Of a stretch of 64,000 nt of DNA, positions 14,980-56,907 are shown in pieces (the first letter of the stretch is position 1; the number at the start of each line of letters is the position of its first letter). The DNA comes from Bdellovibrio sp. BCCA. Lineage in GTDB: Bacteria; Bdellovibrionota; Bdellovibrionia; Bdellovibrionales; Bdellovibrionaceae. Location: assembly GCF_037996825.1 (NCBI RefSeq), contig NZ_JBBNAC010000002.1, forward strand, positions 1 through 64,000, given 5' to 3'. The translations under genes and the position numbers were made by a program. The notes under the pieces are model-generated. The model had not been told where the DNA came from. It did not search any database and was given only the letters and a program-made list of their open reading frames with translations.

Positions 14980-15015
14980 ATGGTAAATAGGGATAATATG
15001 GTAAAAACGGGAAAG
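14980..15015 (+). promoter_or_regulatory. 9-bp phased repeat array
   Basis: ATGGTAAAT, AGGGATAAT, ATGGTAAAA, ACGGGAAAG in perfect 9-base phase, ending 8 bases before the ATG at 15024. The second unit contains GATAAT, a possible -10; the last doubles as a purine-rich ribosome site. Confidence 0.6.
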
Positions 15016-25950: not shown

Positions 25951-25995
25951 ATGGTTAACATGATAAAGAAGGTAAAGACGGTAAACGCGATAAGG
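25951..25995 (-). promoter_or_regulatory. 9-bp phased repeat array
   Basis: Five units on the plus strand in 9-base register: ATGGTTAAC, ATGATAAAG, AAGGTAAAG, ACGGTAAAC, GCGATAAGG. It lies just upstream (minus direction) of the TATACT element and the lytic transglycosylase gene, so relative to the gene the units read GTTTACC. Confidence 0.6.
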
Positions 25996-26074
25996 TGGAT
26001 TAGGTAGATACTTTTTGAGACAGGAATTTAAACGATACAATATTGAGACGACGCGAGGATTCAGAGTGAGACAA

Positions 26075-26389
26075 TTAATTTTTGGGAGGCATTAAATTTT
26101 GCAGGGCTGGTGTTCTCTCCCATTCGTCAAGTTGACGTTCTAATTCGCTGCGTGATTTCCCGCTTGAGCCATAAGAACTTGATGAGGGGTGTTGCGCCGT
26201 ACCAGTAATAATTCCACACATAAGGATCCGAGCCGCGCCTTTCGTGTCGCCCTCTTCTTTGACTAAAACGTCAGCCACGATTACTCCTGCGGCACATGGA
26301 ATAATCACTTCATTGAATAGTTTGGGCCAATCTGTTTTTGCTTGAACTGGAAGCGATAACAGAAGAATGATTGGAAAAATAGCTTTCAT
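26075..26389 (-). CDS. secreted hypothetical protein
   Basis: 104 residues. A signal peptide (MKAIFPIILLLSLPVQA) is followed by a segment with cysteines (IPCAAG; LMCGI) and a small-residue core (AAGVIVADVLV), then a Ser-rich linker and a short charged helix. AGGTAATATG-type leader with GGAGG-like purines precedes the start. No family recognised. It lies upstream of the lytic transglycosylase on the same strand. Confidence 0.6.
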   Translation of the reverse strand: MKAIFPIILLLSLPVQAKTDWPKLFNEVIIPCAAGVIVADVLVKEEGDTKGAARILMCGIITGTAQHPSSSSYGSSGKSRSELERQLDEWERTPALQNLMPPKN

Positions 26390-26422
26390 ATTACCTCCAT
26401 GTACAAAAAACGAAGACTTTTG

Positions 26423-26611
26423 CTATTCGACTGTTCTAAGGGATCCTCTGGCGAACTGGGAGAATCCACCAATCCAATCGGGGATCGATAGAGAGTGGCC
26501 TGCGCAAAGCTTCTTCCCGTGTTGACGTGCCCGCTTCTTCGACTCACGACCGTGATCGTTGCCTTTGCCGTTGTCGTTCACTTGTTTTCTAAAAAGTCCA
26601 TATGCACGCAT
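26423..26611 (-). CDS. small basic hypothetical protein
   Basis: 62 residues, rich in Lys/Arg/His in the first 45 residues (NDNGKGNDHGRESKKRARQHGKK). GGGGAGATGCC precedes the ATG. It lies on the same strand, 34 bases before the 104-residue gene. No family is recognised and the frame might be fortuitous, but the ribosome site and codon use support it. Confidence 0.4.
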   Translation of the reverse strand: MRAYGLFRKQVNDNGKGNDHGRESKKRARQHGKKLCAGHSLSIPDWIGGFSQFARGSLRTVE

Positions 26612-26671
26612 GGCATCTCCCCTTTTTCAAAGTGACTGTGGATAGGATAACTCCTCAATGCCACCTTTCTC

Positions 26672-36410: not shown

Positions 36411-37153
36411 TTATTGCCACCTTTAAGATATCTGCCAAGTTCAGCCCTGATATCGCCCCAAGATTTCAAGGTGCCGAAAGGGCGTTCAGATGTTGGTCTT
36501 TCTTTCCAGTACCAATCTGGGTCTTGAGTTAATTTTAAAGCCTGTGTCAATTTCCAGATCTTGGCCGTATCAATTTCTTCCTTAAGAGTCTTTTTCATGA
36601 GGGCTTCATTGATTAGTTCTATGGTTCTTTCTAATCCTTTAATAAGCCTCTCATTTGACTCCTGGCGTACTTCCATCATGACGGAATCCAAGTCTTCCTG
36701 TGGGTTGCCTAGTTGACTTACTTCTTTGGGCCTTCCGAAAAACCAAATAAGAAATCCGGTGACGTAGTCAATTTCAGGCCTCCAGCAGGCCATTGGATCT
36801 TCTTCAGTTTGATGAACATGCTTCCAATATTCCGCCGATATCATTTTGAAATCGCTCGATTGAGATTTAGATGCTTTATCTAGTTCATCTGTAAAGATTT
36901 CTTTATTAACTTTTGCTTTTCTGCTCTCTTCTAGGATTGAGTTAAGAACTTTGAATCTTGCATCTTGGTATTTTTTAAGGCGGCAAATTTCTTTTTCAAC
37001 ATATGCAAGTGGATCCTTAGTGACTTCACTAAGTTCAGCGCACTTTCGGGATGAATTTACAAGAGCTGATGTTAGGATCTGATTTACAGCTCGTTGACTT
37101 CGCAGTTCTGCTTCAAGTTCTGAGCGTGAAAGTTTCTTGTCAGAGTTCTTCAA
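36407..37153 (-). CDS. hypothetical coiled-coil protein under a structured leader
   Basis: 248 residues from a TTG start preceded by GGAGGATCA. The first half is helical, the second has GFLIWFFGRPKEV and a WKERPTSERPFG segment. No family recognised. It is the first gene of the minus-strand operon (36407 down to 34628) and directly follows the structured leader RNA B and its box promoter, so its translation may be regulated by that leader. Confidence 0.6.
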   Translation of the reverse strand: MKNSDKKLSRSELEAELRSQRAVNQILTSALVNSSRKCAELSEVTKDPLAYVEKEICRLKKYQDARFKVLNSILEESRKAKVNKEIFTDELDKASKSQSSDFKMISAEYWKHVHQTEEDPMACWRPEIDYVTGFLIWFFGRPKEVSQLGNPQEDLDSVMMEVRQESNERLIKGLERTIELINEALMKKTLKEEIDTAKIWKLTQALKLTQDPDWYWKERPTSERPFGTLKSWGDIRAELGRYLKGGNK

Positions 37154-37362
37154 TGATCCTCCAATAATGGGGGAGCCACAAAAGACTTTCCCCCTTTCCT
37201 GTGCTGTCAGACGTGTGGCTCAAGCGTTTCCCGTCGGATTGGAGCCGTCGCTCCACGCTTTGTCATCGTCTCAAGACCCTTGAATTGCTGCGTCCTTTGC
37301 TTTTCGCCGGAAGGTTAGCTTTTAACTACGCATTGGCTCATGAGTCGCGCTCTCTCCGTTAC
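37154..37362 (-). ncRNA. structured 5' leader or small RNA (RNA B), possible cis-regulator
   Basis: About 209 bases between the box promoter and the TTG start at 37153 hold no gene but fold strongly on the minus strand: GUUA/UAAC, UCAAG/CUUGA, TGGAGC-GACG-GCTCCA inside an AAGCGT/ACGCTT stem, and near the end GAGCCACA with TGTGGCTC (8 bp). The last pair competes with GGGGG/CCCCC, which would lie next to the ribosome site, so two alternative folds are possible. No known riboswitch motif recognised. Confidence 0.5.
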
Positions 37363-37367
37363 TTCTG

Positions 37368-37394
37368 CTCAATGGGGATGTCCCCGAAATTGAG
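37368..37394 (-). promoter_or_regulatory. box-type promoter of RNA B and its operon
   Basis: On the minus strand CTCAATTTCGGGGACATCC, then CCATTGAGC. The outer arms GCTCAAT and ATTGAGC form a perfect 7-bp inverted repeat, and the predicted start near 37362 marks the 5' end of the structured leader. Confidence 0.6.
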
Positions 37395-37399
37395 CTAAA

Positions 37400-37909
37400 T
37401 TAATTCTTTCTAAATAATCGATGTGCTATCAGTAAGTACATTTTGCTACCAACGTAGTATTGAAGTTTTACAATCTGATATCCAATGACAATACCTATCA
37501 CCATGGTTGGTATTACAATCGAATTTGATAGAGTCATGTTTGGCAGAGTGAAGGCCAAGAAGATGCTCAGTGTAACCATAAAAGTAATCAGCACGATGAA
37601 GCAGTTATAAATATCGATAGCTGTGACAAGTGTTGCTTTAATAGCGAATCTAAATAGTCCATGTGCCTCGATATTTAGACGATTGTACATAAGAAGTTCC
37701 AAGCAGACCCTCGTCATAAATGCAAAGCACTTAATTAGTGATGGAACAATGGAGGAAGCAAAAATCACGAACAAAAGCAATTCGTAAGTTAGGCTATGGA
37801 TCAATTGACTACTAAATCCCACAGTTAAAATACTCAAGGCAGCAACCTGTGCGAGCCAAAATTGGAGAGCTTTGATGTATGGAATTTTGAGTTTTGAAAG
37901 TAATTCCAT
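37400..37909 (-). CDS. multi-helix membrane protein
   Basis: 169 residues from the ATG at 37909 (AAGG upstream, 1 base after the upstream stop). About four membrane segments: FWLAQVAALSILTVGFSSQL, LLLFVIFASSIVPSLIKC, CFIVLITFMVTLSIFLAF and IVIPTMVIGIVIGYQIV. No family recognised. It ends the minus-strand membrane-gene operon (39199 to 37400) just before RNA B's promoter. Confidence 0.6.
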   Translation of the reverse strand: MELLSKLKIPYIKALQFWLAQVAALSILTVGFSSQLIHSLTYELLLFVIFASSIVPSLIKCFAFMTRVCLELLMYNRLNIEAHGLFRFAIKATLVTAIDIYNCFIVLITFMVTLSIFLAFTLPNMTLSNSIVIPTMVIGIVIGYQIVKLQYYVGSKMYLLIAHRLFRKN

Positions 37910-39216: not shown

Positions 39217-39292
39217 TGGTGCGACCATCCGGACTTGAACCGGAATCTGCGGTTTAGGAAACCGAAGCTCTATCCTGTTGAGCTATGGTCGC
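39217..39292 (-). tRNA. tRNA-Arg (anticodon CCU)
   Basis: A complete cloverleaf on the minus strand: acceptor stem GCGACCA/TGGTCGC, T8, D-arm GCTC ... GAGC, anticodon loop TTCCTAA giving anticodon CCU for the AGG codon, T-arm TCCGG-TTCAAGT-CCGGA, discriminator A and encoded CCA. The anticodon stem has one mismatch (27-43). A 9-bp repeat array and TATAAT (39299-39304) lie upstream, with the -10 six bases from the mature 5' end. Confidence 0.9.
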
Positions 39293-39306: not shown

Positions 39307-39342
39307 ATGGTAAACATGAAAAATACGGTAAAGATGTAAATT
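39307..39342 (-). promoter_or_regulatory. 9-bp phased repeat array of the tRNA promoter
   Basis: On the plus strand ATGGTAAAC, ATGAAAAAT, ACGGTAAAG, ATGTAAATT in 9-base phase. In the direction of the tRNA they read CTTTACCGT, ATTTTTCAT, GTTTACCAT and lead into GTTATAATT. Confidence 0.6.
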
Positions 39343-51022: not shown

Positions 51023-51037
51023 TTGAGGAGTGATTGT

Positions 51038-51640
51038 ATGTCTAAATGCTCAAAAAGAAATGAAGATATAGTCGCAAAGTTTCGAAGTGGCATGACCCTT
51101 GAGGCTATCGGCCAAGAGTACGGAGTGTCTCGCCAAAGGGTACAACAGATTATTCAGATGTACGGTCTATCAAGAGACAGCGGAGGGGTTAGCGCGAACA
51201 GATCCAATAAACTTGAGATGATCGCTGACCTATGTAGGAAAGGCCGTACAGTCACTGAGATCGCGCAGGAAACGGCTTGTAAGCATACTTTTGTTACCAA
51301 ATCTTTGAAGCAACTCGGATTAAAAGCTAGGACTCCTGCTCAAAGAAAGTATGGAGATGAGAGCGCGATCATTTCATTTGCAAGTAGATCACAGAGCCTT
51401 CGCGATATGGCAAAATTAATGGGTGTAAACGAGCACTCACTTGGCAGGTATTTGAATCGGCACTATCCAGAAATCCTTAAGAGGATCAGTAAGCGACCAA
51501 CGAGCGAAGAGTCTGAACAGAGAAAATTGATGGTGAAGCAGATGCTCGCCGAAGGTAAAGCGCCAAAAGAGATTGCTCAAGATTTGAAGTTGAATCTCCC
51601 GACGCTCAAGGCGTGGATGAAATACAACCACGTTTCTTAA
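51038..51640 (+). CDS. protein with four tandem HTH units
   Basis: 200 residues from the ATG at 51038 (GAGGAG upstream). Four helix-turn-helix units of about 45 residues: GMTLEAIGQEYGVSRQRVQQIIQ (best, like sigma region 4), GRTVTEIAQETACKHTFVTK, SQSLRDMAKLMGVNEHSLGR and GKAPKEIAQDLKLNLPTLKAW. Such arrays could bind a long DNA site. It is coupled to a cysteine-rich phage-type gene. A regulator role is inferred. Confidence 0.6.
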   Translation: MSKCSKRNEDIVAKFRSGMTLEAIGQEYGVSRQRVQQIIQMYGLSRDSGGVSANRSNKLEMIADLCRKGRTVTEIAQETACKHTFVTKSLKQLGLKARTPAQRKYGDESAIISFASRSQSLRDMAKLMGVNEHSLGRYLNRHYPEILKRISKRPTSEESEQRKLMVKQMLAEGKAPKEIAQDLKLNLPTLKAWMKYNHVS

Positions 51641-53233: not shown

Positions 53234-53256
53234 ATTGTATCAAATTGACCAATAAA

Positions 53257-53295
53257 CTGGTAAAGATGGTAAAATAGGTAATCGTGAGATAGAAT
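53257..53295 (+). promoter_or_regulatory. 9-bp phased repeat array before RNA C
   Basis: CTGGTAAAG, ATGGTAAAA, TAGGTAATC, then GTGAGATAGAATTT with -10-like TAGAAT. The predicted transcription start near 53301 coincides with the beginning of the strongly paired region. Confidence 0.65.
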
Positions 53296-53300
53296 TTAAA

Positions 53301-53800
53301 TTACGAGTGTCGGAAAAGATCACCCGACCGTAGCGCATCCAATGCTGTGCGCTTTCTACGAGGTTGCCATGCGGAAAGTTGGCAAGACTCTGGTTCTCGC
53401 GGGAAATAGCCAGCAACTGGATGCTGAGCTCAGAATCGGACCATGCAACGTGCGCTCCGAATGCCTATGCGAGAGCAGAATGCCGGAGTCGGTAGAGTGG
53501 GCTATTGACCCTCTATACCCACTTCAGGGGTTCCGCAAAAGGCTCCTGAAAAACTCAAGTACGCGTCGTGAGACGCTTTAGCTTTGAGTGGATAGCGGTG
53601 TGGTACTCACCGGACCTCAGTTGCTCGAGATAGCGACTGGGTAGGCCTAGATAGCCTGGGCCCTGTACGGTGATAGCGTGGGTGACTCCCCTCCCAAGGG
53701 CAGAAAACCCAACAGACACACAGGGATGATCGGAGAATTGATTGTCCCTAATCTTGTAAGGCGCGGCAAGCGTCCACTCAAGGCAACTATAAACTAGGAG
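53301..53800 (+). ncRNA. candidate large structured RNA (RNA C)
   Basis: About 500 bases with no credible gene and a dense set of stems in plus-strand order: GTCGG/CCGAC (53309-53328), CGTAG and GCGCA pairs (53329-53360), TTGCCA/TGGCAA (53364-53385), AGTGGG/CCCACT (53496-53523), CAGGGG/CTCCTG with a G-T pair (53525-53548), GCGTC-GTGA-GACGC (53563-53576, a GNRA loop), CAGTTGCT/AGCGACTG (53618-53639). The G-T pairs support plus-strand transcription. A 9-bp-array promoter lies at its 5' end. No match to tmRNA, RNase P, SRP or group I/II introns was found by eye. Confidence 0.55.
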
Positions 53801-53805
53801 CATCC

Positions 53806-54204
53806 ATGATTGATTGTTTACGAATGATAACTAGAGTCGGTTTCGTCTTACTTCTTCTTTCTTTGATTGTGATCTATTCAAAGGAAATAAGTCTTATCTA
53901 TACAGAAAATCATCGCCAAAACCTTTTGCTGTCTGAAGCTGAAAAGGTTGCCGAGGAAACATTTGGTGTAAAAACGAGCATTTCCGAAGGGCAAATGATT
54001 CTATACCAAATCGAATCAACTCCGTGTGTGAAAATCGGAGGTGGAGAATGTCCGAAAAAAAAGAAAATTCTTTTAAGAGTAGCGGTCGATTCTTCTAAAG
54101 AAAACATTTTAAATTTATCTGAGCAGATCCGAGCGTCGAAGGCAGAAATTCTTTCTGAATTATCTAGAAACAAAAACAATACTGAGAGCCCGCTATCGAG
54201 GTGA
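53806..54204 (+). CDS. small membrane-anchored protein (paralogue 1)
   Basis: 132 residues: an N-terminal hydrophobic helix (MITRVGFVLLLLSLIVIYS), then a soluble part with TFGVKTSISEGQMILYQIES, a C-V-K-I-G-G-G-E-C cysteine pair and LRVAVDSSKENILNLSEQI. This matches the next protein (paralogue 2) in order and spacing. It begins right after RNA C, so they could be one transcription unit. Unknown function. Confidence 0.55.
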   Translation: MIDCLRMITRVGFVLLLLSLIVIYSKEISLIYTENHRQNLLLSEAEKVAEETFGVKTSISEGQMILYQIESTPCVKIGGGECPKKKKILLRVAVDSSKENILNLSEQIRASKAEILSELSRNKNNTESPLSR

Positions 54205-54206
54205 TT

Positions 54207-54605
54207 ATGCGAAATTTAACCATTTCACAAATTTTAAGTGTGTGTTTTATCGCAACAATAGTTGCGGTTTCTTTATATAAAGAATTTGTTCACGATCCGT
54301 ATCAAAAACAGATGGCGATTTCTACCCTCTCAGTAGAACAAGCTTTCGGCGTAAAAGCGCGTATCACTGACGGTAAACTATTTCTCTATGAGGAGATGAC
54401 AGAAGAATGCCCAGTAACTCCTCCGCCGTGCACGACATACGAACAAATTCTTCTCGTGGTGCCCGTTGATACTTCGAGAAAGAATGCATCCCATCTTGCA
54501 GATCAGATCCTTGAGCAGCAACATGGAATTAGACAGGCGCTAGCGCGAGCGAAGGAAAGTGTCAAGTTCCTATATAAGTCTAAACAACAGACACCAAAAG
54601 AGTAA
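54207..54605 (+). CDS. small membrane-anchored protein (paralogue 2)
   Basis: 132 residues from the ATG at 54207 (GAGGTG upstream). Same plan as the upstream protein: an N-terminal helix (ILSVCFIATIVAVSLYK), AFGVKARITDGKLFLYEE, a C-x(6)-C pair (CPVTPPPC) and LLVVPVDTSRKNASHLADQIL. So this pair arose by tandem duplication. Upstream gene overlap is 0-4 bases depending on start. Unknown function. Confidence 0.55.
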   Translation: MRNLTISQILSVCFIATIVAVSLYKEFVHDPYQKQMAISTLSVEQAFGVKARITDGKLFLYEEMTEECPVTPPPCTTYEQILLVVPVDTSRKNASHLADQILEQQHGIRQALARAKESVKFLYKSKQQTPKE

Positions 54606-54609
54606 TAAT

Positions 54610-55230
54610 ATGAAAATCACCCCCTCTTTTATCGCAATGATCGTGAAAATTCATGACTTCTTTAAGGGGAGTGAGAAGACAGCGTCTTTCTTTAACACTG
54701 CAAATTCTAATCTAGGTGGAGCAACACCTCTTGAACTTATTCTAAACGGGCGACAGGAGAAGCTTGAGAAGTGGGTTCACGAAAATTTGACGGAAGCAGT
54801 AGAATCAAAGTTTTCTGATTTTGCGAACTCTTACATGGTGATTCCACCAAATGAATATTTATCCTTCCAAGGACTTTGGATCGAAAAGCGCTATCAAGAA
54901 GACGACACATTTTTATGGGCGGCTTTCATGGGTCGCAGAAACTCCTTATCAAAGAAGCACAAAGTGTTTCTTATGGAGGGGAGTCATATCGTAAATGAAC
55001 AAGACATCAGTGATCGCAGATACTCATCATTTGATGAGGTGGTTGATTATCTGTCCGCATTTATTCAGAACGAAAGAAACAAAGAGTATTATTTTCCGGA
55101 ACTTCTGAAGTACTTAAATGATAATTACCCGAAAGCATTTCTGAGAGGGAAAAAAGATGTTCCTACCCGTTCAGGAAGCGCTTACTGTCCTATGTGCGAT
55201 TCATTCGACTGCAAATGTAGCGGTTGTTAG
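54610..55230 (+). CDS. MbcA/ParS/Xre-type antitoxin-domain-like protein with cysteine tail
   Basis: 206 residues from the ATG at 54610. Residues about 24-50 (SFFNTANSNLGGATPLELIL) follow the toxin-binding domain of MbcA/ParS/Xre antitoxins: W/F-x-x-x-N-x-x-L-G-G-x-x-P-L-x-L-L. The C-terminus ends in CPMCDSFDCKCSGC, a likely zinc cluster. No RES-domain toxin is seen next to it. It is followed by 119- and 142-residue unknown genes. The family call is by pattern only. Confidence 0.45.
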   Translation: MKITPSFIAMIVKIHDFFKGSEKTASFFNTANSNLGGATPLELILNGRQEKLEKWVHENLTEAVESKFSDFANSYMVIPPNEYLSFQGLWIEKRYQEDDTFLWAAFMGRRNSLSKKHKVFLMEGSHIVNEQDISDRRYSSFDEVVDYLSAFIQNERNKEYYFPELLKYLNDNYPKAFLRGKKDVPTRSGSAYCPMCDSFDCKCSGC

Positions 55231-55241
55231 AGAAGGATAAT

Positions 55242-55601
55242 ATGATTAAATCAAACGCTATGGTTACGACTGAAAATCCAGATCCTATTACATTTCATGA
55301 AATTCAAAAGGCGATAAATTTACCTGTAAAATACCTGGAAGCTCGACATTTGGACGTTGTTGCAGATCCAGATCTTTATGCTTTTCAAGCAAAATTGGAG
55401 GGTAAAAGCCTCCTCGTATTTGCCGATATGAATGACCTGAAATACGACTCGCGGACAAAAGCTATCGATATGTTGGAGGTTAGTGATCTCAAGGGTGGTA
55501 TAGGTTCTGTTAGAGTTGCATTGAGATTCGAAATTCGTATTGACGGAAAGATTAAAGTTCTAAAAGGGCAACACTGGAACGATGCTAAGGGGGAGTTTTA
55601 A
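55242..55601 (+). CDS. hypothetical protein
   Basis: 119 residues from the ATG at 55242 (GAAGGATAAT upstream). Soluble; the alternating pattern YAFQAKLEGKSLLVFADMNDL and RVALRFEIRIDGKIKVLKG suggests a small beta sheet. Its stop overlaps the next start. No family recognised. Confidence 0.55.
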   Translation: MIKSNAMVTTENPDPITFHEIQKAINLPVKYLEARHLDVVADPDLYAFQAKLEGKSLLVFADMNDLKYDSRTKAIDMLEVSDLKGGIGSVRVALRFEIRIDGKIKVLKGQHWNDAKGEF

Positions 55602-56029
55602 TGAAAGGAATGATGTACTTTAGTGATCGTTTTATCGAATGTAACGGTTCGGGTAATCCTAGATTCATGGAATTCTTTGATATCGACAAGGATTTAGTGA
55701 GATCAAACCCTCCACGTACAAAGCAGGAATTCCCATACAGTTTTGATCCGTTCACAATTTGGGGAGGCCCTTCGCCAAAATGCAATGCTACTGACTGGAC
55801 GGACTGTCTTCACAGTTTTGATTCACAAAAGTATTCCAGCGCGGGTAAAGAAGTTTTTGGCGATGGTCGATGGTTTGGAGAAGGTTTAAATGGCAAAAAA
55901 GTTCAACAATTCCTAAACGCCTATTATGGAAGAAATGATCTTATCCTTACTCGCGTAATTGAATACTGCAATATGTCCACCCAGTACATTACCTATCGTA
56001 TTGATTATCACGATCCAAGAAAGAAATAG
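55601..56029 (+). CDS. hypothetical protein
   Basis: 142 residues overlapping the previous stop by one base; GGGGGAG lies upstream of the ATG. Aromatic-rich, with SFDPFTIWGGPSPKCNATDWTDC and GRWFGEGLNGKKV. No family recognised. Codon use is like its neighbours. Confidence 0.55.
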   Translation: MKGMMYFSDRFIECNGSGNPRFMEFFDIDKDLVRSNPPRTKQEFPYSFDPFTIWGGPSPKCNATDWTDCLHSFDSQKYSSAGKEVFGDGRWFGEGLNGKKVQQFLNAYYGRNDLILTRVIEYCNMSTQYITYRIDYHDPRKK

Positions 56030-56033
56030 AATT

Positions 56034-56453
56034 ATGAGTACTTTAACATTTGTCCCACAAAAGAAACACAGTGACGTTCTTCAACGAATTGTAACAGATC
56101 ACATTTTAGCCGTTCGCTTGATGAGGATAGGCCAACAGATATCTGAAGACGATTTCCTGGTCGATCTTGGGCCGTACAACAGAAACTTCTCAGTGATTCT
56201 TCCGAGCATCAGATCGGTAAAGAGATGGGCCGATATTATTGAAAATATTCCTGGTCTCTTGTCGTCTGGCGCGTCGATCAATTTCGAAATTATTCTTGGA
56301 GAGCTCGAAAGTCTATTTAATCCATCCGTTGATTCGAGTGAATATTGCCTGTATGTGCAAAGACTTGCGAGCGCACTTGAAATAGAACTTCCGCCTCGCA
56401 ATAAAATTCATACGAGATTCGATTGTGCCTTCAATATGACCAGGCATTTATGA
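56034..56453 (+). CDS. hypothetical protein
   Basis: 139 residues from the ATG at 56034, which follows the previous stop by 4 bases. Mostly helical (PGLLSSGASINFEIILGELESLF). Overlaps the next start by 4 bases. No family recognised. Confidence 0.5.
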   Translation: MSTLTFVPQKKHSDVLQRIVTDHILAVRLMRIGQQISEDDFLVDLGPYNRNFSVILPSIRSVKRWADIIENIPGLLSSGASINFEIILGELESLFNPSVDSSEYCLYVQRLASALEIELPPRNKIHTRFDCAFNMTRHL

Positions 56454-56722
56454 GTGAGTATAATCCAAGCGTTCAGACTATCGGGCGAGCAGACCTGAAT
56501 GAAGGCGAAGTGTGGGCTTACTATGTCGACGGATTTCGTCGCTATATCGGAACTGTGAAATTCCACCGCTACTTGGATTGCAAATACCTCGTTCATCATA
56601 AGCTAGGTCGCGGCGAAAGCGATTGCATTCTTCGAACCACTCATAATGCGAATGATCTCAAAGCTTCAAATATGTGTAAGGTGTGCATAAAACGCGCAGA
56701 GAAAGAGAAGGAGACAAAATGA
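56450..56722 (+). CDS. small zinc-binding protein
   Basis: 90 residues from the ATG at 56450 overlapping the previous stop. The C-terminal half has SDCILRTTHNA ... NMCKVCIKRA, a C-x(n)-C-x-x-C pattern like the proteins at 39992 and 42035, so the window holds at least three members of this kind. It overlaps the next gene by 4 bases. Function unknown. Confidence 0.5.
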   Translation: MSEYNPSVQTIGRADLNEGEVWAYYVDGFRRYIGTVKFHRYLDCKYLVHHKLGRGESDCILRTTHNANDLKASNMCKVCIKRAEKEKETK

Positions 56723-56907
56723 AGTTGATCTATATCGACCCACACTGTTCAGGCCTCCAGGTGACTAATTGCCCATCAAAAGACAAAGTGGAGCAGGTAC
56801 TTTCCTCAAAAGGCATGAATGAAGATGAGTGCGGTGGGGAAGTTGTTCACTACGTCTTTATTGATTCAAAAGGCAATGAAACTAAGGGGAGCCTGGATTT
56901 CACTTAA
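56719..56907 (+). CDS. small hypothetical protein
   Basis: 62 residues from the ATG at 56719, overlapping the previous stop by 4 bases. Starts MKLIYIDPHCSGLQVTNCPS and contains several cysteines (HCSGL, NCPS, ECGGE), so a metal site is possible. Last gene of the plus-strand run 54.6-56.9 kb. Confidence 0.5.
   Translation: MKLIYIDPHCSGLQVTNCPSKDKVEQVLSSKGMNEDECGGEVVHYVFIDSKGNETKGSLDFT

Follow-up and report, generated by a model that had tools for sequence, protein, structure and literature searches.

The window analysed is a stretch of 64 kb corresponding to the start of contig C2, the second replicon (209,039 bp) of a genome of 4.01 Mb. On its plus strand a block of about 500 nt (53301-53800), named RNA C, lies between an array of 9-bp units and a run of same-strand genes. 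The features of the locus are as follows.

53250-53258, plus strand: weak half unit preceding the array
53259-53285, plus strand: 9-bp array, units GGTAAAGAT-GGTAAAATA-GGTAATCGT, matching the register of the replicon-wide consensus GGTAAACATGGTAAACATGGTAnT
53290-53295, plus strand: TAGAAT, a possible -10 element, read directly from the sequence
53300/53342-53581, plus strand: ORF of 79-93 aa, codon-usage score -0.05/-0.04
53305-53556, plus strand: predicted 5' domain, containing a long branched stem (53386-53403/53464-53490)
53309-53328, 53332-53353, 53364-53385 and 53523-53550, plus strand: predicted hairpins of the 5' domain
53541-53550, plus strand: GGCUCCUGAA, with alternative predicted pairings, either with 53523-53532 or, via GCUCCU, with the AGGAG of gene 53806
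53555-53803, minus strand: ORF of 82 aa, codon-usage score -0.14
53563-53576, plus strand: hairpin GCGUC-GUGA-GACGC with a GUGA cap, lying between both domains (pairing probability P 0.83)
53581-53784, plus strand: predicted 3' domain, multibranched, with a 13-bp closing helix (53581-53593/53772-53784, P 0.96)
53796-53800, plus strand: AGGAG, ribosome-binding site of gene 53806
53806-54204, plus strand: first downstream gene, 132 aa, hydrophobic stretch at the N-terminus; its product is 27% identical to that of the next gene
54207-56907, plus strand: remaining same-strand gene run (54207, 54610, 55242, 55601, 56034, 56450 and about 56683), without an array of its own

C2 encodes ParA, a TrbI-like conjugation protein, FtsK-like and HerA-like ATPases and a tyrosine recombinase, and thus looks like a conjugative-type megaplasmid. 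It further has genes of its own for a Pol III alpha-like protein (L014 15314-17758), an NAD-dependent DNA ligase (L012 3779-5776) and a ribonucleotide reductase (L012 14538-16910), which are uncommon in plasmids. A region near parA (L016 2600-3350, i.e., 202.6-203.35 kb of C2) is iteron-rich, with many direct and inverted CCATCTTGTGCACACC-like repeats; it is the probable replication or partition origin. Neither the 1337-aa protein, the HerA-like protein nor the 53806/54207 pair has relatives in 141 genomes of the order. The other backbone or neighbouring proteins tested have none in plasmids, phages or viral contigs, each in the collections searched, some of which may omit records close to the source genome. 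The literature search returned nothing usable on a described plasmid of such kind or on an orphan RNA.

The GC content of 53301-53800 is 0.54 vs. 0.42 for C2. The codon-usage scores of the two ORFs listed above are those of wrong frames, which average -0.05 (for true genes the median is close to 0.14 and the 1st percentile close to 0), and neither ORF matches Pfam or PHROG. The block is therefore non-coding, in agreement with the first-pass annotation, which had seen no gene there.

The MFE of the plus strand of 53301-53800 is -196.6 kcal/mol vs. -166.6 +/- 6.4 for dinucleotide shuffles, i.e., z = -4.68 with none of 100 shuffles as good, and z is -2.46 for the minus strand; this fold support is that of a single sequence. 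A second, independent shuffle set gives z = -3.9 for the whole block, -3.4 for 53301-53556 and -4.5 for 53581-53790; with the same set, a neighbouring gene has z = -2.4 and the downstream gene z = -0.9. RNA C ranks third among the 838 windows of 500 nt of C2 and is also found among the best-folding 240-nt windows. The only better-folding windows are both strands of the repeat-rich region near parA (202.5-203.3 kb). About 30 helices are predicted, many of them with a pairing probability >0.8, and the base-pair probabilities draw a confident architecture in two domains. According to these models, the plus strand of the block has a stable, strand-biased fold divided into two domains; the large structured block of the first-pass annotation is thus recovered, together with the GTGA-capped hairpin that it had pointed out. 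The start of the 3' domain has four copies of GAUAGC in about 90 nt; in 4 of 500 shuffles some 6-mer, whatever its sequence, reaches four or more copies in 110 nt. The search for pseudoknots in RNA C yields 4-bp candidates only, one of which joins the GUGA loop to UCAC at 53320-53323.

Two other regions of the window may be mentioned here. About 700 bases without plus-strand gene (25990-26670) follow the array at 25953 and are possibly the region called RNA A in the first-pass annotation; they fold no better than their shuffles (z from +1.0 to +1.7). On the minus strand, 37150-37402 is a gap without genes (GC 0.52) with several stems; its fold is mildly better than that of shuffles (z = -1.8) and it has no Rfam match.

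The array consensus GGTAAACATGGTAAACATGGTAnT covers 24 bp with a 9-bp period and a fixed register, with weaker preferences 5' of it, and is present in about 28-35 copies on C2 (28 confident sites were aligned; 44 sites exceed 11 bits if overlapping reverse matches are included). With the reversed-sequence control, 0-1 sites exceed 11 bits. All 12 two-mismatch matches of the genome are on C2, and by the same two-mismatch search the site is absent from the chromosome and from 140 other genomes of the order. The copies are often located within about 120 bp 5' of a gene and are mostly oriented with that gene; examples in the window are those at 14982, 25953, 32196 (minus strand), 39309, 51862, 53259 and 58135. 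The copy preceding RNA C is a weak match (25.6 bits with the 36-bp profile of C2 arrays, the best sites reaching 41). When the array pattern was searched in public genomes and viral contigs, most of the dense matches inspected turned out to be coding repeats of the GKD collagen-like type and not promoters. The number of copies on C2 (about 30) and their absence elsewhere in the order hint at a plasmid-encoded transcription programme.

The array and TAGAAT ahead of the block, noticed at first pass, are thus real, and the array is replicon-specific. It had also been taken for the own promoter of RNA C. Of this claim the genuine replicon-specific site ahead of the RNA is kept; since the aligned C2 arrays have no -10 box at a constant spacing, we only infer that the array acts as a promoter, and a regulator or operator site beside a promoter is equally possible. 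Gene 51035-51637 encodes a protein of about 201 aa with 3-4 helix-turn-helix matches (residues 12-43, 62-85, 118-144 and 161-196) spaced by about 50 residues. Its product is a candidate binder of the 9-bp array, with one unit per domain.

The covariance-model search suggested with the first-pass annotation was run against Rfam 15, whose families include ROOL, GOLLD, OLE, HEARO, group I/II introns, RNase P, tmRNA and riboswitches. RNA C has no match at the gathering threshold, and up to E = 10 only three chance matches are obtained (10.7-15.9 bits); it thus matches no known RNA family. RNA C is single-copy in the genome, without paralogue on C2. By blastn, no homologue is found in phages, plasmids and 60 relatives, and the search of 369 genomes of the phylum gives only short matches at chance level, all within open frames. 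One-sequence covariance models find only the query in the case of the 3' domain (R1), besides one chance-level match of 23 bits in an open frame, and only the query, with no credible relative, in that of the 5' domain (R2). RNA C probably represents a new structured RNA. With no Rfam match obtained, the readings as group I/II intron, RNase P, tmRNA or known riboswitch were dropped. A retron ncRNA is excluded, since the RVT_1 reverse transcriptases are found on the chromosome contig C1 only and none adjoins RNA C.

The last helix of RNA C ends at 53784, about 10 nt before the AGGAG of gene 53806, whose ATG is at 53806. No convincing terminator is found between RNA C and this gene; only the GUGA hairpin, within the block itself, is picked up as terminator-like, as a weak hit from a set no richer than shuffles. 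There is no further array site between RNA C and 58135. The operon therefore probably shares the transcript of RNA C, i.e., RNA C is probably the first ~500 nt of the 53806 operon transcript, either as a cis-acting leader or as an embedded RNA freed by processing. On the same grounds, the independence from neighbouring genes claimed by the first-pass annotation is not retained.

That RNA C is a functional structured RNA, the leader and the stand-alone readings being taken jointly, is likely. Between the two, the reading of RNA C as a large structured leader acting in cis on the expression of a small membrane-protein operon is slightly preferred because of its placement before gene 53806, whose product matches no PHROG family and, at cut-off, no Pfam family. 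We hold it tentatively, at somewhat less than an even chance. The transcript would start at the array site (about 53283-53302) and run through the ~500 nt of RNA C into the 53806 operon; RNA C would then act in cis and set the expression of the membrane proteins. A speculative means would be to expose or hide the ribosome-binding site of gene 53806. With the downstream sequence included, GCUCCU (53543-53548) is predicted to pair with this site at P of about 0.7, in competition with the hairpin 53523-53550. Such a hiding switch is nevertheless not significantly above chance, since 12-26% of shuffled leaders are as strong, and the pairing is lost when the fold is cut at 53815 or 53830. Other points weigh against a leader: (i) a two-domain fold of 480 nt exceeds known riboswitches in size; (ii) no relative was found, hence no conserved link to the operon; (iii) a processed stable RNA can adjoin a gene on C2, as seen for tRNA-Arg (CCT). 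The preference is weak because this tRNA (39217-39292, minus strand) sits similarly close to an ORF: its 3' end is about 18 nt before a small same-strand ORF, which suggests that the tRNA is processed from an mRNA. The array at 39309 points the opposite way. This tRNA is the only one in the window, another being located at about 80 kb.

The same structural data may be read otherwise. RNA C may be a stand-alone RNA of a new class, trans-acting or structural, functioning as a separate RNA or RNP like the large RNAs of mobile elements and released from the transcript by processing or by Rho-dependent termination. Its size, the stability of each of its two domains taken separately and the strength of the fold over 500 nt are in favour of this possibility, to which we give roughly one chance in three; so are the four GAUAGC copies, as in modular RNAs, and the fact that other array-driven transcripts without a following gene are not so structured. 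It is weakened by the lack of a terminator, by the direct abutment of the RNA on the ribosome-binding site of the gene, and by the single copy without homologue in the order or the phylum. A bolder form, in which RNA C would found a new class among the large ornate RNAs (ribozyme, RNP scaffold or self-assembling RNA) made from the private array-type promoters of the megaplasmid, is improbable on present data.

It is also unlikely that the block has no function as RNA, i.e., that it is a foreign or decaying GC-rich insertion, or a site of recombination or transfer at the DNA level, that folds by chance. Its GC content in a replicon at 0.42 would fit such an origin, as would z-scores drawn from one sequence. 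Nevertheless, the fold is strand-biased, a promoter-like array lies directly ahead of the block, Rfam, Pfam and PHROG identify no remnant of gene, intron or transposon in it, and the TrbI-like conjugation gene is far from RNA C (near 154 kb). Finally, a protein made from either ORF (79-93 aa on the plus strand or 82 aa on the minus strand) is very improbable: the ORFs are present and the 5' end reads GKDHPTVAH, which we take to resemble the DnaA domain IV signature, in a stretch giving short matches to coding DNA in relatives, but these matches are of ~25 nt with chance E-values within long open frames, and the codon usage and family searches described above are against it.

Few large structured RNAs without known function have been described in bacteria, and phages or chromosomes are the source of most of them. 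An unrelated large RNA on a megaplasmid, with a replicon-private promoter site, would be a new family. Like long 5' leaders and riboswitches, RNA C is structured, has no ORF and is located directly before a ribosome-binding site. However, known riboswitches are 2-3 times shorter, RNA C matches no known class and its switch pairing is not significantly above chance. OLE RNA is produced as part of an operon, which also seems to hold for RNA C, and the two are alike in being large, multi-domain and structured. OLE (Ornate Large Extremophilic) RNA is a class of large structured RNA of about 600 nt (PMC12286853), from which RNA C differs by the absence of an Rfam match at E = 10, by an unrelated host group and by having no demonstrated conserved neighbours. 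In Bdellovibrio bacteriovorus, merRNA is a structured, riboswitch-containing RNA that seems to stand alone (PMC3627812); RNA C differs from it in having no match to the c-di-GMP riboswitch and resembles it as a structured RNA possibly acting alone. ROOL and GOLLD are large ornate RNAs of mobile elements whose function is unknown (PMC12286853). Unlike RNA C, they are represented in Rfam; they often lie near tRNA islands of phages or prophages, whereas RNA C belongs to a plasmid of conjugative type and has a single tRNA at a distance of 14 kb. For ROOL, GOLLD and OLE a further class feature is an RNA-only multimer, in the first two a multimeric cage. What RNA C has in common with them is to be a large structured RNA on a mobile element, and with it one could examine whether RNAs of this type act alone or as giant leaders.
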